Shown: in pieces, positions 16,708 through 44,898 of the stretch
How the letters are laid out: the number at the start of each line of letters is the position of its first letter
How positions within the stretch are numbered: position 1 is the stretch's first letter
NCBI GenBank assembly: GCA_013360745.1
Contig: JABWBA010000014.1
Span: 1 to 55,876 of the forward strand
Direction: 5' to 3'
Origin: Chthonomonadales bacterium
Lineage (GTDB): Bacteria > Armatimonadota > Chthonomonadetes > Chthonomonadales > CAJBBX01
Length of the DNA: 55,876 nucleotides
Position numbers and translations under genes: made by a program
The notes under the pieces: generated by a model
Seen by the model: the letters and a program-made list of their open reading frames with translations, nothing else
Databases searched by the model: none
Told to the model about the DNA's origin: nothing

Positions 16708-18150
16708 TCAACGAAACGCCGGCGGCCGCACGTCCTTCGGCAGACTCCGGAGGTAGGCGGCATAGTCGTTATAGAGCTGAATCGCTCTTGGATTGCCGTT
16801 CGGCCGCTTGCTGCGCGGTTGCTGCATAAAGCCGAAAAAGGCGTAGGCGGTCAGGACGTCGACATGCCGCTTCTGGATATCGATCTGCTTCCGCACCCGA
16901 TCGATCGAGGGCGGATACGCATGGCCGTAGCCGTGTGCGCCGTCCATCTCCCATATCTCCAGGTCGGTCCACAGGTGCTTGCCGGTGTCCGCGTGGACCG
17001 CGTTGTAGTCTGAGTAGATTCCCTCGAGCGCAGCGATTCGCTTATTCGGATCCCAGGTGTTCACATACGGCATATAGCCCGACCCGACGGCGTCCTGCGG
17101 CGCGATGATGTCGACCTTGCTGGCGCGGATCGTATCTGCGTTCCATATCGGGGTGCCCGCCGGCGCGATGAGGACGGGCTTCTCGGGCGCTAAGCTCTTG
17201 CAGAACTCCGTCACCGGATTGTAGTAATCGGCCGATCGCGCGAGATCGTTCATCTCATGGGTCAGGTACCAGCCGTAGAAGGAGCGATGGTGGCCGTACC
17301 GCTCCCAGAGCTCCCGGGCGACGTCGGTCGCCACCTTGATCGCGGCCCGGTTCCGATCCGCCCAACCCGGTTTCTCGAACTCCCAGAGCAGATGGAGGTC
17401 GCCGCTCCGTCCCAGGCCGAGGAACACCTTCTGTCCCGTCCGGTCCGCCTCCGCCATGATCGGCTCGATCACGTCAACCTCGCAATCGGCCGCCCGGACG
17501 AGCTTCCTCGAATCCCGATCGTAGAACTCGACCTTGCCCGGATAGAAGAACCGACCGTACCACTCCGCGTACGTGAAGATGAGGATCCGCATGCCGAGTC
17601 GGTTCATGGCTCGGACTGCGGATCGGATCTCGTTCTGGACAGCCGCCGGACCCTGAGCGTCCAATCCCTCCGTCGCGCTCAGACCGTCGAGCCATGCGCC
17701 CTGCAGATAGGGCAGCGCGCGGGTGGGGGCAGCGACCACGTCGAGAGGCCACGAACCCGAATAGGTGCGGCCCGCGCCGACGGCCCTGTAGAGCAGACGT
17801 CTGCGACCCGCCTCACCTGCGGTGGGCCACCAGGCCGATGCGAGGGCGGTTCCGCCCGGCGGCACGGTGATCGTCTGTTCGCCGATGAAACGCTCCGGTA
17901 CCCGGCGATCGGCGTGGAACGTCACCCTGTATGATCGGGGCTGATCCGAGGTGTTCCGGAAACCGAGGCGAAGCTCTACCCGAATACGATCGGTTACCGG
18001 CCCCGGAGGGATCACGAGGAATCCTGATGGAGCGCGGGAATCGGAAGCGGACTTCTCGCCCGCAGCGGCGACCGCGAGGCCGATGGTGACGGCAGTCGCC
18101 AACAACGCGGCGGTCAGGATGGCCGGACATCCTCCGGTGCAGGGTCCCAC
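16708..18150 (-). CDS. Exported DUF4434-type TIM-barrel protein, putative glycoside hydrolase
   Basis: The product has 480 residues with GTG start at 18150, nine bases after the stop of the preceding gene; an AGGG lies upstream. A signal peptide is visible (ILTAALLATAVTIGLAVAAAG). Residues about 40-150 form a beta-sandwich; the rest is a TIM barrel with QGAWLDG, MRILIFTYAEWYGRFFYPG, FYGWYLTHEMND (candidate acid/base glutamate) and HLWTDLEIWEMDG (candidate nucleophile) near the end of late strands. This is the DUF4434 pattern, a clan GH-A-like group with no assigned substrate. It is the last gene of a three-gene minus-strand operon and ends 24 bases from the convergent cytochrome fusion gene. 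Confidence 0.8.
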   Translation of the reverse strand: MGPCTGGCPAILTAALLATAVTIGLAVAAAGEKSASDSRAPSGFLVIPPGPVTDRIRVELRLGFRNTSDQPRSYRVTFHADRRVPERFIGEQTITVPPGGTALASAWWPTAGEAGRRRLLYRAVGAGRTYSGSWPLDVVAAPTRALPYLQGAWLDGLSATEGLDAQGPAAVQNEIRSAVRAMNRLGMRILIFTYAEWYGRFFYPGKVEFYDRDSRKLVRAADCEVDVIEPIMAEADRTGQKVFLGLGRSGDLHLLWEFEKPGWADRNRAAIKVATDVARELWERYGHHRSFYGWYLTHEMNDLARSADYYNPVTEFCKSLAPEKPVLIAPAGTPIWNADTIRASKVDIIAPQDAVGSGYMPYVNTWDPNKRIAALEGIYSDYNAVHADTGKHLWTDLEIWEMDGAHGYGHAYPPSIDRVRKQIDIQKRHVDVLTAYAFFGFMQQPRSKRPNGNPRAIQLYNDYAAYLRSLPKDVRPPAFR

Positions 18151-18159
18151 GCGATCGCC

Positions 18160-19284
18160 CTAGATATCGCCGATGCGAGGGAGCAACTCCAGCGTCCAAC
18201 CTAGCATCCACGCGAGGTTCTCCGGCGGCCTCGGTTCCGATTGGCCCGTGACGGGGTGGTAGCCTCCGGTGGTCGTCACATCCGGGGTCAGGTGCGCAAG
18301 CAGCCATTCCGCACCCTTCTGCGCCTTCGGACGGTAGGTTGCGACATCGCGATCGCTCAGGATGCCCGCGTCTCGGGTCCGGAGATACGAGAGGATCGCG
18401 CCCGCGGTCTGGCCGACCCATCGATCGTCCCTGCCCTTCATGCCGCATGCGCCGTCGTCGAACTGGCATGCGTCGAAGTGCCACCGCATCGAAGCGGCGC
18501 ATTTCGCCGCAATGCCCCTTTGCATCCCCTCACGATCGGTGCGAGGATAGAGCGCGGTCAGAAAATCGATGACGCCGACCGACGAAAACCCCCAGCCCAT
18601 CTCGCAGGAGGGCGTTCCGGAAAAATGCTCGATCTGATCCGCGAGCGTCGGCGCCACGACCCAGGTGCCGAGCGTGGGCGACCAGCAGCCCTTGTACGTC
18701 CCCGGTTCCACATCGGTGAGGTAGTAGAGGGCGAGGCCCTCGGCATCGATAAGGACATCGCGCCGTTCGGAGATCGCGTAGTACGCCGTCAATCCGCGGC
18801 CCATATGACAGTTGTCATCCGAGTTCGCGCAGTCCTCGATCCCCTTGTCAGGGACGCCGTAGCCATTCCTGTAGTAGCTTCCATGTCCCCAGCGCCAGAG
18901 CCCGAGCCATTCGTAGAGTGCGGCGGCCTTGCCGTCGAAGCAAGCCTCCTCAGGATGCCGTTGTCGAAAGGCGCCATAGGCCGTCAGGGCCATGCCGTAC
19001 TCGAAGGGGAATGCCTGGTAATCCCATCGCTGGCGTCCGTTCCACGGGTTGCGCATGGCCGCGATGTAGAACGTCGCGTAACGATCGGCCGCATCTCTGT
19101 AACGGAGGTCCCCCGTCGCGTCATAGGCGGAGTACAGGCCGAGCGCAAGGAAGGTCGGACTGTGGTAATGGGTCGAGATGCAGGGATGTTTGGTTACGAA
19201 CGGACACCGCTCCGGGTCGGGGCGGCCATACGCGGTTTGCCATTCGACGAAAGCATCGGCAAGAAGGGCGATCGTATCATGCAT
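18160..19284 (-). CDS. Uncharacterised cytoplasmic protein, helical-barrel glycosidase-like
   Basis: The product has 374 residues. ATG 19284 has GGAG ten bases upstream; no signal peptide. The sequence alternates helices with loops rich in aromatic, Gly, Asp and His residues (HYHSPTFLALGLYSAYDATGDLRYRDAADRYATF, MALTAYGAF, DDNCHMGRGLTAYYAI, MGWGFSSVGVIDFLTALY), the look of (alpha/alpha)6 barrel enzymes such as unsaturated glucuronyl hydrolases or epimerases. I could not place it in a named family. It lies between the DUF3830-BNR fusion and the DUF4434 gene with short gaps of 58 and 9 bases, so it is probably co-transcribed and works on the same substrate. Confidence 0.78.
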   Translation of the reverse strand: MHDTIALLADAFVEWQTAYGRPDPERCPFVTKHPCISTHYHSPTFLALGLYSAYDATGDLRYRDAADRYATFYIAAMRNPWNGRQRWDYQAFPFEYGMALTAYGAFRQRHPEEACFDGKAAALYEWLGLWRWGHGSYYRNGYGVPDKGIEDCANSDDNCHMGRGLTAYYAISERRDVLIDAEGLALYYLTDVEPGTYKGCWSPTLGTWVVAPTLADQIEHFSGTPSCEMGWGFSSVGVIDFLTALYPRTDREGMQRGIAAKCAASMRWHFDACQFDDGACGMKGRDDRWVGQTAGAILSYLRTRDAGILSDRDVATYRPKAQKGAEWLLAHLTPDVTTTGGYHPVTGQSEPRPPENLAWMLGWTLELLPRIGDI

Positions 19285-19342: not shown

Positions 19343-20380
19343 TCAAGCGCGGCCCGTTGGCAGTGGGATGATCAGGAGCGTATCCGGTGTGCGCGCCCCG
19401 ACGGCATGGGCGGCGCAGCAGAGGCGGTTCGGGCCGAGCGATAGAAGGATGGGATGGGCGAGGCCGTGGATCGTCGCGTTCGCGAACGGGTGGATCGGTC
19501 GCAAGTCGGTGACGCTCGAGCCGCAGGCGAACGAGAGGCCGGACTCATCGTCATAGGCAAGGGCCACAACGCCGTTGCCGAGCGCCAGAAGCGACGGTTT
19601 CGTTCCCCGTAGGCCGGTGGGCCGTGCCGAGCTCCAGGTGGCGCCGCCATCATGGCTGAAACTGACGACCAGTTCGTTCGTGCCTCCGACCGATAGAACC
19701 GCGGCTAACCCGTCTTCCACCAGGGCCAGATCGGCGCTGCCGATGGTCCAGCCTCCACCGACGACCTCGCCGCTGAGGAACCACGACCCGTTCGGATACC
19801 GTCGTCTCAGCAGTCGGCAGCCCCCTGTGGCCGCATCGGGCGCCAGCCGGACGGCCCCGTCGCCGGTAACGACCTCGTGCGCCGTGATCGGGGCTTCGTT
19901 GGCCGGGTCGTAATAGGGCACGACCACGGCGTCTCGTTCGTCGGAGGCGGATTCCGCGAGGAGGCAGGTTACGCCGGAGCGGCGCATCGCCCGGGATCGG
20001 CGGAAGAACGCCTCCGTATCGCCGGTGAACCGGGCGAAAAGGCTAACAGGCGCGGGCCCCTCGTGCATGGACGGGCGGGCATCCTGATCATAAAACCAGC
20101 AGATCTCCGAAAACGCCTGCACAACGCCGTAGGCGCTGCCCGCGGCGAACCACGTATAGCCCACATCGCCCGGACGAACCTCCGCCGTGGCGTTTTCCGG
20201 CGGTACGCAGACAAGCTCCGGGAGAATCACTACCCCCTCGCTGCCGGAATAGGACGCATGGTGGCAAACGCTTGCGACGGGCAACGCCGCTGTGATCGCC
20301 CGGCAGGTCTCAGGCGCTTCGTTCTCTCGCAGCATTGCGATCGCGGTCTCGCCCGTATGGAGGAAGGTGAAGCGAATCAT
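19343..20380 (-). CDS. DUF3830 cyclophilin-like domain fused to a BNR/sialidase-like domain
   Basis: The product has 345 residues from ATG 20380 (MIRFTFLHTGETAIAML). There is no ribosome site, but a -10-like TATTCT ends seven bases before the ATG, so a leaderless mRNA is plausible. Residues 1 to about 145 match the DUF3830 cyclophilin-like pattern (SYSGSEGVVILPE, PENATAEVRPGDVGYTWF, WFYDQDARP...FARFTGD). From about 160 on there is a different, beta-rich part with an Asp-box (SHDGGATW) and related blade-like repeats (SADLALVEDGLAAVLSVGGTNELVVSF, PSLLALGNGVVALAYDDES), as in BNR/sialidase propellers, though only about three blades fit. No signal peptide. The role is unknown; the operon suggests glycan catabolism. 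It is first in the minus-strand operon and divergent from the permease gene. Confidence 0.78.
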   Translation of the reverse strand: MIRFTFLHTGETAIAMLRENEAPETCRAITAALPVASVCHHASYSGSEGVVILPELVCVPPENATAEVRPGDVGYTWFAAGSAYGVVQAFSEICWFYDQDARPSMHEGPAPVSLFARFTGDTEAFFRRSRAMRRSGVTCLLAESASDERDAVVVPYYDPANEAPITAHEVVTGDGAVRLAPDAATGGCRLLRRRYPNGSWFLSGEVVGGGWTIGSADLALVEDGLAAVLSVGGTNELVVSFSHDGGATWSSARPTGLRGTKPSLLALGNGVVALAYDDESGLSFACGSSVTDLRPIHPFANATIHGLAHPILLSLGPNRLCCAAHAVGARTPDTLLIIPLPTGRA

Positions 20381-20387
20381 GTTGCTA

Positions 20388-20393
20388 AGAATA
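20388..20393 (-). promoter_or_regulatory. -10-like box, predicted leaderless start of DUF3830-BNR gene
   Basis: On the minus strand TATTCT is followed by seven bases and the ATG at 20380, with no Shine-Dalgarno sequence. A TTGTCA lies 21 bases upstream, on the same bases as the plus-strand TTGACA, which is longer than ideal spacing. Low confidence. Confidence 0.35.
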
Positions 20394-20413
20394 GGATTTT
20401 GCCCGTCAGGTCC

Positions 20414-20442
20414 TTGACAACGGGCAACATGTAGCATAACAT
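20414..20442 (+). promoter_or_regulatory. Sigma70-type promoter driving the DUF6785 permease operon
   Basis: A perfect TTGACA (20414-20419) and TAACAT (20437-20442, four of six) are spaced by 17 bases. Transcription would begin near 20449, just before the inverted repeat at 20457-20470. The surrounding stretch is AT-richer than its neighbourhood. It faces the permease start at 20487. Confidence 0.65.
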
Positions 20443-20456
20443 AAAGCTCTGCGGAA

Positions 20457-20470
20457 TGCAAGCGTTTGCA
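20457..20470. promoter_or_regulatory. LacI-family-like operator
   Basis: TGCAAGCGTTTGCA is a near-perfect palindrome with the central CG and flanking TGCAA/TTGCA half-sites typical of LacI/GalR-family (and CcpA cre) operators. It sits about 8-21 bases downstream of the predicted transcription start of the permease operon, a position where a bound repressor would block transcription. No LacI gene is in the window, so the regulator would be encoded elsewhere. Its effect on the divergent DUF3830 gene is unclear. Confidence 0.6.
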
Positions 20471-20486
20471 TGAACGATCGGACCCA

Positions 20487-22523
20487 ATGATAGAGCTAGA
20501 TACGAACCAATCCCGTCGCGACCACCCTCAACCAACCGGCCCTGCCAAACCCATGATGCCGGTTGAGCAGCGGCTCACCATCGGACGAATCCTCGCCGCG
20601 CTGGCGGTCGGCCTGATCCTGATGGGCATGACCAGCCTGGCCATCCGATATACCGAGATGGTCACTGGGCGATATGTCAGCCATGGCGTCCCGCCACTGC
20701 CCGCCTTCGCCTCGTTGCTCTTACTCAGCCTGCTCCGTCCCGTGCTGAGGAAGTACGCCCCGCGGCTCGCGATGACGAACGTCCAGATGCTGATGATCTA
20801 TACCATGGTCGCCGTATCCACGGTCATCAGCAGCCCATACGAGATCCGGGCATTTCTGCCCCATCTGGTGTCCATGCAGTACCAGGGGCGGACGGACCCG
20901 GCGATGGCGGAGTACGCGCGGCACCTGCCGACCTGGCTCGCTCCGCGTGATCCCGCCGTTATCGAGGCCTACTATGAGGGCGCACCGGGCAAGCCCTTCC
21001 CGTGGCGGTTCTGGATCGGCCCGTTATTCTGGTGGTACACGTTCCTCAGTGCGCTCTTTATCGGGGCGTTCAGCATCGTCACACTGGTGAAAAAGCGTTG
21101 GATCCAGGAGGAGCGGCTTACGTTTCCGCTGCTCGCGGTGCCCCTTGCAGTTACCTCGGACGACTGGCGCAGCTACGGTTCTGCGGCGAGCCGCCGAACG
21201 ATCTTTATGCTCGGCTTCGGTGTCGCGGCGGCCTATAACGGGATCAACATCCTCCACACGGTCTATCCGCCTGCGCCTTCGATCAGTTTCTTCATCCCAC
21301 TGCAACAGTACTTTGTCGATCGGCCCTGGACGCCCTTCGGCTCCGCGTTCATCATCTTCTTCCTCGAGGCGATCGGCATCGGCTATTTCGTGCCGCTTGA
21401 GATCACCTTCTCGATATGGTTCTTCTACTTGCTCAACCGAATCTTCGCCGTGGCGGGCACCGCCATGGGTTACGATACGCCTGGCTTCCCCTTCACGCAG
21501 GAGCAATCGGCCGGCGGCTACATCGCGATGGGGCTCGTGCTGCTGTGGGGGCTCCGGACGACGCTCCGCAAGAGCCTGAAGCGGGCGTTCAGTCGGATCC
21601 CTCGCGGATCCGAGGCGGCGGACGAGCGCTGGGCGTGGATCGGTCTCATCGCATCGGCCCTCTTTGTCGTCGGATTCCTGACGGCAGCCGGTATGGCGAT
21701 CTGGATGACCCTGGGTTTCTTCGGCATTTTGCTGATCTTCGTGATCGTCGTGGCGCGGATTCGCGGAGAGACCGGCGTGCCTCTCGGGTTCGTCTATCCG
21801 TACGGCATGCCCCGGGAGATGCTCCTCAACATCGTCGGCATTCCTCAGACGATTGCATGGGGCGGAACCGGCTCGTTCGTCCTCCTGTCGAGTCTGTCCT
21901 GGCTGTCGCGCCACCATTTCGTTCAGGAGCACGCGGCGTATCAGCTCGATGGCGCGAGGATCGCCCACGATACGCGAACCCCCTATCGGACGCTGGTTCT
22001 CTTCGTCGGGATCGCGTTCGCTGTGGGGCTTGTCGCCGCCTTCTGGATCCATCTGAACGCCTACTATTCCATCGGCAGCAACATGGCGGGCGGCGGGGGC
22101 GGTTCCGGAGAGTTCCGAGCCATGGTTGCGGGCCAGGAGTATCAGCAGATGGCCTCGAGGCTCGCGGCCCCGCCGCTCCGGAGCATCCCCAAACTCGTAG
22201 CCAACGGTGGCGGTTTCCTCGTGGTTCTCGCGTTGAGCGTGGCCCGCTCCTACTTCCTGAAGTTGCCGCTCCATCCGCTGGGCTTTGTCATCGCGACGGC
22301 CTACGGCGAATCCCTCAACGCCTGGTTCGCGATCTTCATGGCCTGGCTGCTGAAGGCGCTGATCCTCCGGTTCGGCGGGTTGCCCCTGTACCGCAGGGGG
22401 ATCCCGTTCTTTCTCGGGCTCACCATCGGGCATTTCCTCCTCGCGGGCGTGGTGTGGCCGATCCTGAGCCTGTTCATCGCCCCGGAGGCGAGCCAGTCCT
22501 ACCCGATCTACTTCGCGGGATAG
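20487..22523 (+). CDS. DUF6785/DUF6784-type polytopic membrane protein (OPT-like permease)
   Basis: The product has 678 residues from ATG 20487; TTG 20466 and ATG 20553 are in-frame alternatives, and 20466 would lie inside the operator. At least a dozen hydrophobic segments are visible, beginning with ILAALAVGLILMGMTSLAI and LPAFASLLLLSLLRPVL. Conserved blocks include NVQMLMIYTMVAVSTVISS, KKRWIQEERLTFPLLAVPLAV, ARIRGETGVPLGFVYPYG and a C-terminal GFVIATAYGESLNAWFAIFMAW, as in the DUF6785/DUF6784 proteins seen in Armatimonadota and Planctomycetota, distantly like OPT transporters. The likely role is uptake of an oligosaccharide or glycan-derived compound; the substrate is not known. It is the first gene of a plus-strand group under the LacI-like operator. 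The paralogue is at 43000-44898. Confidence 0.85.
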   Translation: MIELDTNQSRRDHPQPTGPAKPMMPVEQRLTIGRILAALAVGLILMGMTSLAIRYTEMVTGRYVSHGVPPLPAFASLLLLSLLRPVLRKYAPRLAMTNVQMLMIYTMVAVSTVISSPYEIRAFLPHLVSMQYQGRTDPAMAEYARHLPTWLAPRDPAVIEAYYEGAPGKPFPWRFWIGPLFWWYTFLSALFIGAFSIVTLVKKRWIQEERLTFPLLAVPLAVTSDDWRSYGSAASRRTIFMLGFGVAAAYNGINILHTVYPPAPSISFFIPLQQYFVDRPWTPFGSAFIIFFLEAIGIGYFVPLEITFSIWFFYLLNRIFAVAGTAMGYDTPGFPFTQEQSAGGYIAMGLVLLWGLRTTLRKSLKRAFSRIPRGSEAADERWAWIGLIASALFVVGFLTAAGMAIWMTLGFFGILLIFVIVVARIRGETGVPLGFVYPYGMPREMLLNIVGIPQTIAWGGTGSFVLLSSLSWLSRHHFVQEHAAYQLDGARIAHDTRTPYRTLVLFVGIAFAVGLVAAFWIHLNAYYSIGSNMAGGGGGSGEFRAMVAGQEYQQMASRLAAPPLRSIPKLVANGGGFLVVLALSVARSYFLKLPLHPLGFVIATAYGESLNAWFAIFMAWLLKALILRFGGLPLYRRGIPFFLGLTIGHFLLAGVVWPILSLFIAPEASQSYPIYFAG

Positions 22524-22622: not shown

Positions 22623-25163
22623 ATGGTTGCGAGTTCGCCGATGTCCATGCCCGCCTTCCGATTGATGACCGTGGTTGCGCTGATCGCCCTGCGGGCGGTC
22701 TCCGCGGTTGCACTGCCGCGCGGGGTGGAGGTCCGATCTGCGGCTGGTCTGACGGTCTACTCCGGAGACTCGGCGACGGCAGCCTTCCTGATCGTCAATC
22801 ACGAGACCGCCCCTCGGACCGTGACGCTGACGTTGACCTGTGATCGGGGAACGGTCACGCCGCAGCGGCAATCGGTGGATCTCGACGCACAGGGCTGGAG
22901 GCCGATTCTCGTGCACGCGACGCTGGAGGAGGCCGCCGGCCAAGCTCGGATCACGGCATCGGTCGGCGCCTCCAGCGCCTCCATTGATCTCGTGCGGGGA
23001 ATCGACCTCACCCGCCTGACATGGAAACAGCTGTTCGTCCCGCCGACTGAGGAGGACACCGCCTATGCCGCACCGTCCCTGGACGATCGCGGATGGATGG
23101 ACCTGCATATCCCTGCGCTGTGGAATGACAACCGTGCCGCATGGTGTCGCGTCGGCGTTCGGATTCCCGCCGCATGGAAGGGGATGCCCCTTCGGGTTGA
23201 GCTCCGGGCGGTGGACGACAACGACATTACCTTCGTCAACGGGAAGGCGATCGGACGCACCAACGGATGGGATACGCCCCGGTCCTACACGGTCCCGCAG
23301 GAGGTCGTCCGCTGGGGAGAGGTGAACACGATCGCGGTTCGCGTGGATAACCCCACCTTTGGAGGAGGCATCCATCGCGCACCGGTTCTGCTCATCGCTG
23401 GGAATGAGGCAGAGCCGGTCGGTAACGAGAAGGAACCGCCCGTCGCAGGCGTGGCGCGGCCAGCCCCGGGCGTCATCGGTCAGCCGCGCCCGCTCCGCCC
23501 GCTCCATGTGGATCGGGGCGTGCTCCGCTATCCCGAAGGGTCGGAGGTGGCCCTGTGGGGCGTAAACATCTACCCGCAGAGCTGGCATCAGTTCGAGAAC
23601 ATGCGCCGTCTGAAGCTCAACATCAAGAACACCCTGATGACCGATCTCGACCATCTGCAGCAGATGGGCGTAGAGGCGATTCGGATGCATATCTTCGATC
23701 GGGAGATCACCGACGGCGAGGGGCGCATCCTGGAGAACGAGCATCTGGATATCCTCGATTTCCTCGTGTCCGAATGCACTCGGCGCGGTCTGTATCTCTA
23801 TCTAACCCCGATCGCCTGGTGGGGCGGCCCGAACGAGAATCCTGCCTCGTTCTCGGCCCAGACGAGCAAGCCCGGTATGGTGTTTGTCCCGTCCAGCGTT
23901 AGGGCCGCGGCCCACTATCTGACGGCGTTCCTCAACCGGAGGAATCCGTATACGAACCGGGCCTACAGGGATGAACCGTCCCTTTGCGTCCTGGAGGTGA
24001 TGAACGAACCGGCCTATTTCCTGTATGGAGACATCGAAGGGTCCGGCTATCCTCCTCAGGGGGAGTCCGAGGCCGTTCTGGCTCGCGATCGGGCCGAGTT
24101 CCGACGCCAGTGGTTGCAATGGTGCGCCGCGATGGGCGCCGAACCCGAACCCGGCCTGTTCTCGCTCTTTCGGTACGATCAAATGCGCCGCTACATCCGG
24201 GCGATGGTGGGTGCGATCCGTGCTGCCGGCGCTCGACAGCCCATCGCCCTTTCGTTCTTCGGTTCGAATGGCGACGATATCGTCCAGGCGATCGCCGATT
24301 CCGAATGTGACGCCGTGACGGTCAGCGCCTATCCGGGAGGATGGGAGAGGGTCAATGACGGCCACAACCTGATGCGCCACGCGGCCCCTATGGTCCTGGA
24401 TGCCCGCTTCAACGACAAGGCACGACTGGCTTATGAGTTCGACACACCCGCAACCAACACGAGCTGCTATCTCTTCCCCGCCTTGGCTGCGCATTTCCGG
24501 GCCGGTGACGTGCAAATCGCCTGTCAGTTTCAGTACGACAGCAGCGGTACCGCACGCTGGAACCTCGACTGGGAGCCGCACTGGTTGAACTGGCTGTACA
24601 CCCCTGCCAAAGCGGTGAGCTACATGATCGGCGGCGAGACCTTTCGTCATACCCCGCGAGGCGTACGGTATGACGTGGGTACGTGGGAATCCCCGGCCCG
24701 TGAGCTGCGAATCGGCGCCATGGCCACGTCGTTCACTGCCAATAACGGAGTGTTCATCACGAACGATACGGCGCTCTATGCCCGCTCTCTTAGCTGGGAG
24801 AAGGGCGGATGGATGCCGTCGAGGCTCCCTGTCGATCCTCGGCGCATCGTGGGGACCGGATCATCACCCTGGGTCGACTACGGCGGTCTGGGCGCCTACG
24901 TGCTCACGCGAACCTCGGCGCACCGGATGCGGCTTCTGCTCAACCCGGACGCCCGGCTGGTTGGCAACTCCATCGCCGGCGGGCTCTCCGCGCCGGTCGC
25001 GGAGCTGGAGAGCCGACCCCACCTATTCCGCTTGAGCTTGCCGGGCTGGCAGGCGGCGGAGTGTCGGCCCGCGCTCGGCGGCCAACCGATACCGCGCACC
25101 TCGGGCGGGTGGCTTCTGATGCCGGGGGAATATGAGATCACCAGAAAGGCGCCGAAGTCCTGA
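22623..25163 (+). CDS. Exported clan GH-A glycoside hydrolase (GH5/GH2-like) with N-terminal beta-sandwich
   Basis: The product has 846 residues. ATG 22623 has AGGAA nine bases upstream; a signal peptide follows (FRLMTVVALIALRAVSAVA). Residues about 30-120 form an Ig-like fold, about 120-260 a jelly-roll sugar-binding-like domain (LRVELRAVDDNDITFVNGKAIG, EVNTIAVRVDNPTFGGG), and about 290-700 the TIM barrel. Catalytic residues expected for retaining clan GH-A enzymes are seen: acid/base E462 after Asn (EVMNEPAYF) and nucleophile E605 (LAYEFDTP). WGVNIYPQSWHQFENMRRLK and MGVEAIRMHI are typical early-strand motifs. It resembles mannanase or beta-galactosidase-like GH5/GH2/GH42 relatives, but I cannot fix the family. 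It is 99 bases after the permease, which supports joint hydrolysis and uptake. Confidence 0.83.
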   Translation: MVASSPMSMPAFRLMTVVALIALRAVSAVALPRGVEVRSAAGLTVYSGDSATAAFLIVNHETAPRTVTLTLTCDRGTVTPQRQSVDLDAQGWRPILVHATLEEAAGQARITASVGASSASIDLVRGIDLTRLTWKQLFVPPTEEDTAYAAPSLDDRGWMDLHIPALWNDNRAAWCRVGVRIPAAWKGMPLRVELRAVDDNDITFVNGKAIGRTNGWDTPRSYTVPQEVVRWGEVNTIAVRVDNPTFGGGIHRAPVLLIAGNEAEPVGNEKEPPVAGVARPAPGVIGQPRPLRPLHVDRGVLRYPEGSEVALWGVNIYPQSWHQFENMRRLKLNIKNTLMTDLDHLQQMGVEAIRMHIFDREITDGEGRILENEHLDILDFLVSECTRRGLYLYLTPIAWWGGPNENPASFSAQTSKPGMVFVPSSVRAAAHYLTAFLNRRNPYTNRAYRDEPSLCVLEVMNEPAYFLYGDIEGSGYPPQGESEAVLARDRAEFRRQWLQWCAAMGAEPEPGLFSLFRYDQMRRYIRAMVGAIRAAGARQPIALSFFGSNGDDIVQAIADSECDAVTVSAYPGGWERVNDGHNLMRHAAPMVLDARFNDKARLAYEFDTPATNTSCYLFPALAAHFRAGDVQIACQFQYDSSGTARWNLDWEPHWLNWLYTPAKAVSYMIGGETFRHTPRGVRYDVGTWESPARELRIGAMATSFTANNGVFITNDTALYARSLSWEKGGWMPSRLPVDPRRIVGTGSSPWVDYGGLGAYVLTRTSAHRMRLLLNPDARLVGNSIAGGLSAPVAELESRPHLFRLSLPGWQAAECRPALGGQPIPRTSGGWLLMPGEYEITRKAPKS

Positions 25164-28507: not shown

Positions 28508-29053
28508 CTACCAGTTCCGGATAATCTCGTACGCTGAAGCCAGAGCGCCTCCGCATGATGATAGCCATTCGTGCGGATTATCTGGATCGACCGTTAACCA
28601 AAAGGTGTCCGAACCAGCCTTACCCTTATGTTGAGGTGTTTTGCCGATCACGTGCCTTCTGAGTACGTCCTTAGAGAGTACCCAGCAGTGTGCATCAAAG
28701 GGGGAGATACCAAGACATACCGCGTAATCATAGTCCTGATCTCGGATCTGTTGGAACATGTAGATGCCGGTTTTCCAGCGTGTCGAGGTCTTGATCTCGA
28801 CTCGTTTACCGTTTATAACGCGATCGGCCTGAGTGTCGCCACTTGGGATCACGGTCAGTCCTTTCTCGGTGCACCAGCGGGCGACAAGTTGGGCTCCGAT
28901 CTTACCGATCTGACCGGAGCGAAGACAACGGATCCAATCGAACGGACTATCCGTCCATGGATCATCACCCTCGACGCGGAGATAGTCGGCCTTGAGCTCG
29001 TGCGTGTATGATGCGAGCAAGCGCACCTCAATGTCGATATTGCGATCGCACAT
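28508..29053 (-). CDS. PD-(D/E)XK restriction endonuclease-like protein
   Basis: The product has 181 residues from ATG 29053, which has GGAG ten bases upstream; a TTG at 29086 overlapping the methyltransferase end is an alternative that adds 11 residues. The nuclease core is visible as D77 (DTQADRV) and E86-I-K88 (KRVEIKTS), the PD-(D/E)XK pattern, with a preceding helix carrying GKIGAQLVARWC. No other domain is present. The size and position right after a DNA methyltransferase make a type II restriction enzyme the natural reading. The recognition site is unknown. It probably cleaves unmodified foreign DNA recognised at the same site that the neighbour methylates. Confidence 0.8.
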   Translation of the reverse strand: MCDRNIDIEVRLLASYTHELKADYLRVEGDDPWTDSPFDWIRCLRSGQIGKIGAQLVARWCTEKGLTVIPSGDTQADRVINGKRVEIKTSTRWKTGIYMFQQIRDQDYDYAVCLGISPFDAHCWVLSKDVLRRHVIGKTPQHKGKAGSDTFWLTVDPDNPHEWLSSCGGALASAYEIIRNW

Positions 29054-29075
29054 CCAGGTTGTTCTCCATGGAGAT

Positions 29076-29993
29076 CTATTGCGCAAATAGCCCTCGCCCC
29101 ATCCTCGGGTTCAGGTGCGAGGATGGATCGAACCCGACCCAGTCCAGCCTCTCAACCCCCTCGAATCGACGCGCCATTACCGCGAGGGCTTCCGGGTTGT
29201 TGTCGATCAAGACGAAGCGCCGTCCAAGTTCCAGTGAGGCCGCACCGGTCGTACCGCTTCCCGCGAAAAAGTCGAGTACCGTGGATCCCGGATGAGAGGA
29301 CGCCCGTACTATTCGCCGCAGGATACCGAGGGGCTTCTGCGTGGGATATCCGGTTTTTTCCGAACCGTTCGTCGCTACGATCGTATGCCACCAGGTGTCC
29401 GTCGGCAGCTTTCCGCGCGCAGGTTTTTCGGGTCCGACCAGGGACGGCGCCATGTACGGGATGCGGTCAATCTCCTCCGCGTTGAAGATGTAGTCGGAGG
29501 GATCTTTGGCGTAGAGGAGGATGTTGTCGTGCTTTGGCGGCCACCGATTGTTCGGTCTCCCGCCGTAATCGTATGCCCAGATGATCTCGTTCAGGAACGC
29601 CTCACGACCAAAGATGGCATCCAACAGCACCTTGCAGTAATGCACCTCGCGATAGTCGATATGGAAGTAGAGCGAGCCGTTCGCTGCGAGCAGGCGATGG
29701 GCCTCTCGGAGGCGCGGTTCAAGGTAAGCCAGATAGTCGTCAAATACATCGCTGAACTGCTGCTGTCCTATGACAACGCTCTCGTACCGCTGTCCCTGGA
29801 AACCGGTACGATCGCCGTCAGGAGAGCGAACCGTCCTAATCTGGGTCCGGCGCTGCACTTTCCCGGTGTTGAACGGAGGATCAATATAGATGAGATCCAC
29901 CGATTCCGATGGCATCCCACGGAGGATCGCAAGGTTGTCGGCGAAGTAGATCCTGCCGATGATGCCGACGTCCAGTAGATCGCTGGTCTTCAT
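29076..29993 (-). CDS. Site-specific DNA methyltransferase, beta-class N6-adenine or N4-cytosine
   Basis: The product has 305 residues. The catalytic motif IV is DPPF (38-41, IYIDPPFNTG) near the N-terminus, and the SAM-binding motif I (FAGSGTTG, about 243-250, preceded by TVLD) is near the C-terminus, with GYPTQKP (motif X) just before it. The order IV...X...I is beta-class. DPPF leaves N6-adenine or N4-cytosine methylation open. It sits directly before the PD-(D/E)XK gene with a gap of 22 bases, so the pair is a compact type II system. ATG 29993 has only a weak GGAA upstream. It lies downstream of the ceramidase-like gene on the same strand with a 119-base gap. Confidence 0.92.
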   Translation of the reverse strand: MKTSDLLDVGIIGRIYFADNLAILRGMPSESVDLIYIDPPFNTGKVQRRTQIRTVRSPDGDRTGFQGQRYESVVIGQQQFSDVFDDYLAYLEPRLREAHRLLAANGSLYFHIDYREVHYCKVLLDAIFGREAFLNEIIWAYDYGGRPNNRWPPKHDNILLYAKDPSDYIFNAEEIDRIPYMAPSLVGPEKPARGKLPTDTWWHTIVATNGSEKTGYPTQKPLGILRRIVRASSHPGSTVLDFFAGSGTTGAASLELGRRFVLIDNNPEALAVMARRFEGVERLDWVGFDPSSHLNPRMGRGLFAQ

Positions 29994-42999: not shown

Positions 43000-44898
43000 C
43001 TAGCTGAAGTGGATTTGATAGCTCTGTACGGCGGGATGGCCGGTCATCCCCAATAGCCCCCAGACGATGCCCGTAAAGAGGTAACGGCCCATGGCGATAC
43101 CCAGAAAGAGGGGCATCATCCGCATATAGGCTCCGTGACCGCCCATGCGCAGGATCAGCGATTTGGCAATCCAGGCGAGCAAGAACGGGAACCACAGGTG
43201 ATATCCGTAGGCGGAGGTCATCGCGAAGCCGACGGGATGGAAGGGAAACCAGAGGACCTTCTGCCGCATCCAGTTGAGGGTGAAGGCGATCAGGCCGCCG
43301 ATGCAGGTCTGCATCACCAGCGCGGGCCGAGGCAGATCGGGCGAGGCGAGGCGAGCGGCCACGACGCCATACTGCTGTCGCATCACCGCCAGCTGATATC
43401 CGCCGCCGATGTTATCGGCCCCATGGCGGTAGCAGACCGCCAGGTAGAGCGTCCCGCCAAGGAGCAATCCGACGACGACCCCGAACAGGTACCGGCCCAT
43501 CAGGTGTCGCTGCCGGGCGCCGGTCTGGGCCGCGAGACTCATCCCCTCGGCGCTGTAGGCCGCGATCTCGGGCAGTACGCCGCGTGACAATCCTCCCACC
43601 GCGGCGAGCGCGACCAGCCCCTGACCGCTGGAACCGGCCAGCGCCTGCGAGCCCCACAGGTTGGTGAGCAAGGACTGCTGCTGCCAGAACGGAAACAGGT
43701 ACACCGACGGGGTCCCGGTTTCGCAGCGGATCCTCGCGTAGACGATGGCTACCGAGAGCAGCAGTCCCAGATGGACCGCTGCAACCCACAGCGGCATCCC
43801 CAGCGCTCGGAGCCACAGCACCATGAACAACGGTCCAAGGAGCGCCAGCGCCCACGCCACGCGGAACGGCATCGGCTCATCAACATCGTCCTGGTCCCTC
43901 CGAAACGCCAGACGCCACGTCCGGCGGAGTTCCGGCCACGCACGGAAGATCAGCAGCGCGAACAGGCACAGAAAAGCGCCCATGCCCATCTCTTGATAAT
44001 CGTAAGCGGTCGAGAGGACCGGTGAACCTGCCGCCGCTCGGGCAACGGAACTGAGGCGCAGGAGGAGGTACGAGAGCCACGCTGTCAGAAGCACATCGCC
44101 CGGCATCAAGAACGCGAGGCCGAGGATCTCAGGACGGTAGGATACCCATAGGGGAGCCAGCGACGACCACGGCGGCGACGTAAACCATGCGCCGATGTCG
44201 ATGCCGGCGCCAAGCGCGGGTGTCGAAGGGTAGAACGCCCGGAGCATGTTCAGCCCATCCAGACAGGCCGTGATCCCGAAGCCGATCCAGAACAATGGCG
44301 CCGTTCGGCTGCGCCCACCCTCGGCGGCGGTGAGGATGCGCATGGGTATCTGGACCATGGGGTAGGCGAGCCGCTCGTGTTCCATCCAGGATCGACGCAC
44401 GAGGGATAGGGCGGCGGCCAGGGTCGTCAGCAGCGTGATCAGAAGGACACCCCAGCTCAACGCCGGACGCAGCCACAGGCTCCACGGGATCGATCCGCCG
44501 GGCGAACCCTCCAGAAACGCCTTCAGACCCACACCGGCCGGAGGGCCGATCCAGTTCGGTACCATGGAGGCGATCCCCGACATGCCCGGGAGTTCGTTCT
44601 GCGATTGGGCAGCCGTCATCTGGCCGAAGAGATAGACCATGGACGGGGTCGAGGCGATGGCCGAGGCGACCGCCGCAGCCGCGTAGGCTCCGGCGACCGT
44701 CCGTCGGGATTCCTGTGTGGACCGGCGCACCACTCGAAGCGCCGCAGCCAGGACTAATAATCCGGCCAGCGCCGGGATCGCGGGCAGGGCGCTCCCGAGC
44801 TGAATGCTGGCGTAACGGTACTCGGCCTGGATCACCCAGGCGACGGCGACCCCACACAGGACCGCAGCGAGCAGACATCCGCCGAAACGGACGTTCAA
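43000..44898 (-). CDS. DUF6785/DUF6784-type polytopic membrane protein, paralogue of 20487-22523
   Basis: The product has 632 residues with a TTG start at 44898 (no ATG fits; ribosome site weak). More than ten membrane segments are visible. Conserved blocks shared with the first permease are SLVRRSWMEHERLAYPMVQIP, ARIRCETGTPSVYLFPF, GGGYQLAVMRQQYG and HPVGFAMTSAYGYHLWFPFLLAW, with the same order and spacing as ARIRGETGVPL and HPLGFVIATAYGESLNAWFAIFMAW. It is therefore a diverged paralogue. The likely role is uptake of a glycan-derived substrate. It sits between a large exported GH-A-like protein (47 bases upstream) and the TIM-barrel gene (80 bases downstream). Confidence 0.85.
   Translation of the reverse strand: MNVRFGGCLLAAVLCGVAVAWVIQAEYRYASIQLGSALPAIPALAGLLVLAAALRVVRRSTQESRRTVAGAYAAAAVASAIASTPSMVYLFGQMTAAQSQNELPGMSGIASMVPNWIGPPAGVGLKAFLEGSPGGSIPWSLWLRPALSWGVLLITLLTTLAAALSLVRRSWMEHERLAYPMVQIPMRILTAAEGGRSRTAPLFWIGFGITACLDGLNMLRAFYPSTPALGAGIDIGAWFTSPPWSSLAPLWVSYRPEILGLAFLMPGDVLLTAWLSYLLLRLSSVARAAAGSPVLSTAYDYQEMGMGAFLCLFALLIFRAWPELRRTWRLAFRRDQDDVDEPMPFRVAWALALLGPLFMVLWLRALGMPLWVAAVHLGLLLSVAIVYARIRCETGTPSVYLFPFWQQQSLLTNLWGSQALAGSSGQGLVALAAVGGLSRGVLPEIAAYSAEGMSLAAQTGARQRHLMGRYLFGVVVGLLLGGTLYLAVCYRHGADNIGGGYQLAVMRQQYGVVAARLASPDLPRPALVMQTCIGGLIAFTLNWMRQKVLWFPFHPVGFAMTSAYGYHLWFPFLLAWIAKSLILRMGGHGAYMRMMPLFLGIAMGRYLFTGIVWGLLGMTGHPAVQSYQIHFS

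Follow-up and report, generated by a model that had tools for sequence, protein, structure and literature searches.

A probable LacI-type operator in a divergent DUF6785/DUF3830 promoter region of a Chthonomonadales bacterium points to a regulon of scattered uptake and breakdown genes

In the E. coli lac operon the main operator lies just downstream of the transcription start and an auxiliary operator is located inside a coding sequence. A similar layout, with one site (O1) downstream of a predicted transcription start and a second one (O2) within a coding sequence, is seen in a Chthonomonadales bacterium, in the stretch of 55,876 nucleotides that was analyzed as a whole and is called the window here. 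Unlike in lac, the sites belong to a divergent gene pair, the regulator is encoded elsewhere, looping is putative and the O1-O2 distance of 194 bp (centre to centre) does not clearly correspond to an integral number of helical turns. The locus also resembles the local sugar regulons of the LacI family described by Ravcheev et al. (2014, PMC4052901) with respect to the even CG-centred palindrome, the proposed autoregulation of the repressor, the targets from transport and catabolism and the divergent arrangement, but its targets are scattered over unlinked loci and include families without an assigned function. The Armatimonadota, the phylum of this bacterium, are not mentioned in the text of that work. 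The switch itself is ordinary, textbook LacI-type repressor logic; what appears new, and is well supported by the sequence comparisons, is a LacI regulon linking several families of obscure function. A single LacI-type repressor of scattered uptake and breakdown genes very probably docks at O1, and we assign a probability of roughly 0.8 to the reading that O1 is the operator of LacI_C106, which would jointly repress the DUF6785 gene and the divergent operon until released by an effector. One operator would tie DUF6785/DUF6784, DUF3830, DUF4434, the protein 18163 and the pseudopilin-like DUF1559 into one regulated pathway, and a named candidate regulator together with few loci gives an experimental handle on uncharacterized genes in a phylum that has received little study. 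For DUF3830 and DUF6785 no mention was found in the open-access papers searched. The features of the region are as follows.

16708 to 18150, minus strand: DUF4434 protein of 480 aa, last of the three genes in the divergent operon (Pfam; same gene order in the relative G007)
18160 to 19284, minus strand: protein 18163, 374 aa, without Pfam family, predicted (alpha/alpha)6 barrel sugar enzyme
19343 to 20380, minus strand: DUF3830 protein of 345 aa, with which the divergent operon begins (Pfam; orthologues aligned)
20263 to 20276, minus strand: O2, putative auxiliary operator CGCAAGCGTTTGCC within the DUF3830 reading frame (copy of the core, matrix rank 2; moderate support)
20388 to 20393, minus strand: weak -10-like box TATTCT (4/6 matches), 7 nt before the DUF3830 ATG
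20414 to 20442, plus strand: promoter TTGACA-N17-TAACAT of the DUF6785 gene (promoter scan)
20457 to 20470, plus strand: O1, putative main operator TGCAAGCGTTTGCA (layout conserved in two relatives; top matrix match in the window)
20487 to 22523, plus strand: DUF6785/DUF6784 membrane protein, 678 aa (Pfam, AlphaFold2 model, Foldseek; start set at ATG 20487)
22623 to 25163, plus strand: protein with weak GH2 N-terminal-like and GH5-like matches, 846 aa, directly 3' of DUF6785

The preliminary description had placed the palindrome just after TTGACA-N17-TAACAT, and it was found at exactly this position: TTGACA (20414-20419) and TAACAT (20437-20442) are separated by a spacer of 17 nt and followed by 14 nt before the palindrome begins. 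A promoter scan of 20200-20700 returned this promoter as the sole sigma-70-like one, with 10/12 matches. O1 consists of the halves TGCAAGC and GTTTGCA, an even palindrome with a central CG step and at least 6/7 complementary pairs, which is conserved as TGYAAGCGTTTGCA. Its centre is located at about +14 of the predicted promoter and the palindrome spans about +8 to +21, which is the classical repressor position, and repression rather than activation is suggested because the operator lies downstream of the transcription start. ATG 20487, an uncertain choice of start codon for DUF6785, follows 17 bp after the end of O1. Short frames are present at the operator, as an ATG at 20470 begins a six-codon frame whose TGA overlaps ATG 20487 (20470-20489), and in G007 and G010 (L112 about 7794; L113 about 3292) ATGTAA at the operator forms a start-stop; these frames are possibly a by-product of the palindrome only.

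Absence of the palindrome upstream of orthologues had been named as the finding that would speak against the operator, and it is present at the two closest DUF6785 orthologues, those of G007 (76% identity) and G010 (73%). Both keep the promoter and operator layout, with TTGACA-N17-TAAGAT in G007 and TTGACA-N17-TATGAT in G010, each followed by 14 nt and then TGTAAGCGTTTGCA. Together with three promoters of LacI operons, the DUF6785 promoters of the window, G007 and G010 make up six promoters from three genomes with one layout: TTGACA, 17 nt, the -10 box, 12-15 nt and the operator. Both relatives also possess the proposed regulator LacI_C106, and where a genome lacks a LacI_C106 orthologue of at least 59% identity, no operator was detected in front of its DUF6785 orthologues (best matrix score at most 10.2). 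The evidence for conserved sites comes from only two relatives, G007 and G010, of one genus. A weight matrix trained only on sites of these two, leaving out the genome of the window, ranked the site at 20457 first in the window with 23.0 bits and the site at 20263 second with 15.4 bits; 60 random 56-kb windows contained 0 matches of at least 18 bits, and at 15 bits or more 0.15 matches are expected per window. A search for further copies of the palindrome, as had been proposed, was rewarded as well: within the 3.3 Mb assembly the exact core GCAAACGYTTGC is confined to three places, namely O1, O2 and a site before the gene of another LacI protein, LacI_C68. Most other genome sites with one or two mismatches lie inside coding frames and none was accepted as a target.

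The divergent side is less clear-cut. O2, which is absent from the preliminary description, reads GGCAAACGCTTGCG at 20263-20276 and has the same 12-bp core as O1 in opposite orientation. As it encodes the conserved residues PVASVCHH, it is only moderately supported, and in G007 it is not found at the same codons. The divergent promoter region had been described with a second promoter-like box reading toward a leaderless DUF3830 gene, and this picture is partly confirmed: the operator and the forward promoter hold and the TATTCT box exists, but a full reverse promoter does not emerge, as a properly spaced -35 is missing and the scan of 20200-20700 detected none. The distance of 7 nt between TATTCT and the ATG fits a message that is probably leaderless, with the start codon at 20380 and not at 20381. 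It is thus conceivable, though we consider it rather improbable, that O1 controls the DUF6785 promoter only and that the DUF3830 operon is transcribed independently, its divergence being incidental. The weak reverse promoter, the moderate standing of O2 and the distance of about 77 bp by which O1 precedes the DUF3830 start would fit such a separation. In G007, however, the DUF3830-18163-DUF4434 operon is located on another contig than DUF6785 and nevertheless has its own operator TGTAAACGCTTGCA, which overlaps the -35 box of TTGCAT-N17-TATGCT (read by eye), and the ATG follows at so short a distance that the transcript would have almost no leader. G010 has no gene for 18163.

Separate control is also at odds with the more distant genomes G004 and G011, where the genes cluster. 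In both genomes at one locus, and in G009 in pieces on two contigs, a LacI gene 48-50% identical to LacI_C106 is found together with DUF6785, the pseudopilin-like protein, a DegT aminotransferase, an isochorismatase-like protein, a kinase, a Gfo/Idh/MocA dehydrogenase, 18163 and DUF4434; a second kinase, an aldolase and DUF3830 are present in the G004 and G011 clusters. This clustering does not depend on the motif and points to a single pathway. The recognition helices of the cluster LacI proteins read MATAS or TATAS vs I/VATVS, and the upstream sequences differ too. At the cluster LacI genes G004 has only the degenerate copy GCTAATCGTTTGCC, and the promoters of G009 and G011 are without AAnCGnTT, so the operator motif appears to have drifted in these genomes. 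The earlier proposal that one regulator acts on both sides thereby gains from two directions, from the unlinked sides in G007 each having an operator and from the clusters with a related LacI in G004, G009 and G011; such common control is well supported by these comparisons, and it is reasonable to assume that one substrate links both sides. A pseudopilin-like protein (N_methyl plus DUF1559/SBP_bac_10) adjoins the LacI gene in the genome of the window (L036 7592-8482) and is also located beside a LacI gene in G004, G007, G009, G010 and G011.

LacI genes had been suggested as a further search target, and their absence would have spoken against the proposal; four were found in the genome, none of them in the window. 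LacI_C106 (G000:C106:26139-27152, minus strand; G000 is the genome of the window) combines a PF00356 HTH with a PF13377 sugar-binding domain of the periplasmic-binding-like type. It has slightly degenerate operators, with TTTAAGCGTTTGCA at the start of its gene and TGCAAGCGATTGCA at a distance of 1.34 kb, and its orthologues in G007 (61% identity) and G010 (59%) carry TGTAAGCGTTTGCA at both equivalent places, except that one copy reads CGTAAGCGTTTGCA; the operator pairs are 1.26 and 1.28 kb apart. Its recognition helix SIATVSRVLN is similar to the helices of GalR and CcpA, whose half-sites are of the TGTAAnCG type. The operon of LacI_C106 encodes the pseudopilin-like protein, the LacI protein itself, an FG-GAP protein, a DegT aminotransferase, an isochorismatase-like protein and a kinase, and kinase-aldolase-dehydrogenase genes adjoin it divergently. 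The regulon aldolase passes the cut-off of the GntG-family PLP aldolases, and the dehydrogenase comes closest to inositol and UDP-GlcNAc dehydrogenases but stays far below their cut-offs.

That LacI_C68 binds the window sites, alone or in competition with LacI_C106, is unlikely. Its gene is preceded by the third exact core site and there by the similar palindrome TGCAAACGTTTGCG, and SATVSRVLN, its recognition helix, differs little from that of LacI_C106. In G007 and G010, however, the operators are kept without a close LacI_C68 orthologue (best 43%, which is the LacI_C104 orthologue, and 33%), and the LacI_C106 orthologues bear the identical operator at their own genes. Because these relatives keep the operators without LacI_C68, LacI_C106 is strongly preferred as the best candidate for the cognate regulator. 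LacI_C10 and LacI_C104 were rejected, as the matrix found no strong matching site near either. In G004 a different LacI paralogue has the exact TGCAAGCGTTTGCA upstream (L118 5010-5023, G004:C28), which means that the motif alone cannot identify the regulator.

A CcpA-like global catabolite regulator acting on a generic cre box is highly improbable, even if LacI_C106 has CcpA among its best PDB matches and the operator of the relatives, TGTAAGCGTTTGCA, fits the Bacillus cre consensus TGWAARCGYTWNCW. In contrast to CcpA/cre, the sites are few, as only four genome sites agree with TGYAAGCGTTTGCA when up to one mismatch is allowed, three of them at the regulon and one inside a Cse1 gene, and the regulator gene is grouped with targets of its own, the usual pattern of local regulators. 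The near-match in the Cse1 gene (type I-E CRISPR; L005 1075-2481, G000:C47) is taken as chance. That the palindrome as such is a functionless chance match has a next to negligible probability. Its one-mismatch copies over 12 genomes do not exceed the reversed control (31 vs 43), which would fit a chance match, so that the evidence is the location and conservation of the copies and not their number, but the same position behind the same promoter in three genomes, the second copy 194 bp away and the copies at a LacI gene and at the unlinked DUF3830 operon all contradict it.

For LacI_C106 as the common repressor we infer the following scheme. Without effector, LacI_C106 would bind O1 just downstream of the strong 20414-20442 promoter and block transcription of DUF6785, and from O1, perhaps also from O2, it would hold down the DUF3830-18163-DUF4434 operon. 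O2 might serve looping across the DUF3830 promoter or act as a roadblock. Its own operon would be controlled via the two operators about 1.3 kb apart, and control of the divergent kinase-aldolase-dehydrogenase genes is suggested by their position. Once a substrate-derived effector is present, LacI_C106 would be released, whereby uptake and catabolism would be switched on together.

The target list suggests uptake and catabolism. The model of the DUF6785 protein (pLDDT 79.6) matched barley Yellow Stripe 1 over its whole length in Foldseek (E 1.5e-8, TM 0.59/0.65), and the predicted fold suggests a transporter like those of the OPT/YSL type (barley YS1, PDB 7wst, 7wsr). Unlike YS1, to which it is 14% identical, the protein has no Pfam OPT match; Pfam yields DUF6785/DUF6784 alone and no meaningful PDB profile match was obtained. 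For 18163 the model (pLDDT 74.9) shows an (alpha/alpha)6 barrel that resembles cellobiose 2-epimerases as well as GH76 and GH105 (best Foldseek E 1.5e-5), suggesting a sugar enzyme with the AGE/cellobiose 2-epimerase or GH76/GH105 fold, and no sequence match was found in Pfam, NCBIfam or PDB. An NCBIfam search with four window proteins gave no matches. The GH2/GH5-like gene at 22623..25163 could be co-transcribed with DUF6785, and it was not found beside DUF6785 in G007 or G010. No strong operator was found near the GH106, GH4 and GH38 genes elsewhere in the window, which for this reason do not count as evidence on the substrate. Members of the DUF6785/DUF6784 family occur with 3 to 28 copies per genome in 39/41 related genomes searched. 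Tentatively, DUF6785/DUF6784 might represent an unrecognised importer family with OPT fold, here as part of an uptake-and-catabolism system of a novel type. If this was true, the DUF6785 importer would work with the pseudopilin-like protein, DUF3830, the (alpha/alpha)6 enzyme and an aldolase/aminotransferase/kinase pathway in a type of system without earlier description, and our guess for its substrate would be an amino-sugar-like or glycoconjugate compound.

Further observations concern the window and its genome. A second DUF6785/DUF6784 protein is encoded at 43003-44898 (minus strand) without an operator, and the family, with 15 matches here and as many as 28 in relatives, shows a large expansion. 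At 28508-29993 (minus strand) the window encodes an N6/N4 DNA methyltransferase (PF01555) overlapped by a gene for 192 aa without Pfam family, and the two may form a small restriction-modification pair. A repeat-like stretch elsewhere in the genome (L014, G000:C125 about 1558) translates into repeats of GFNPHRPRRAGEP/CFNPHRPRRAGEP and is a possible CRISPR array.
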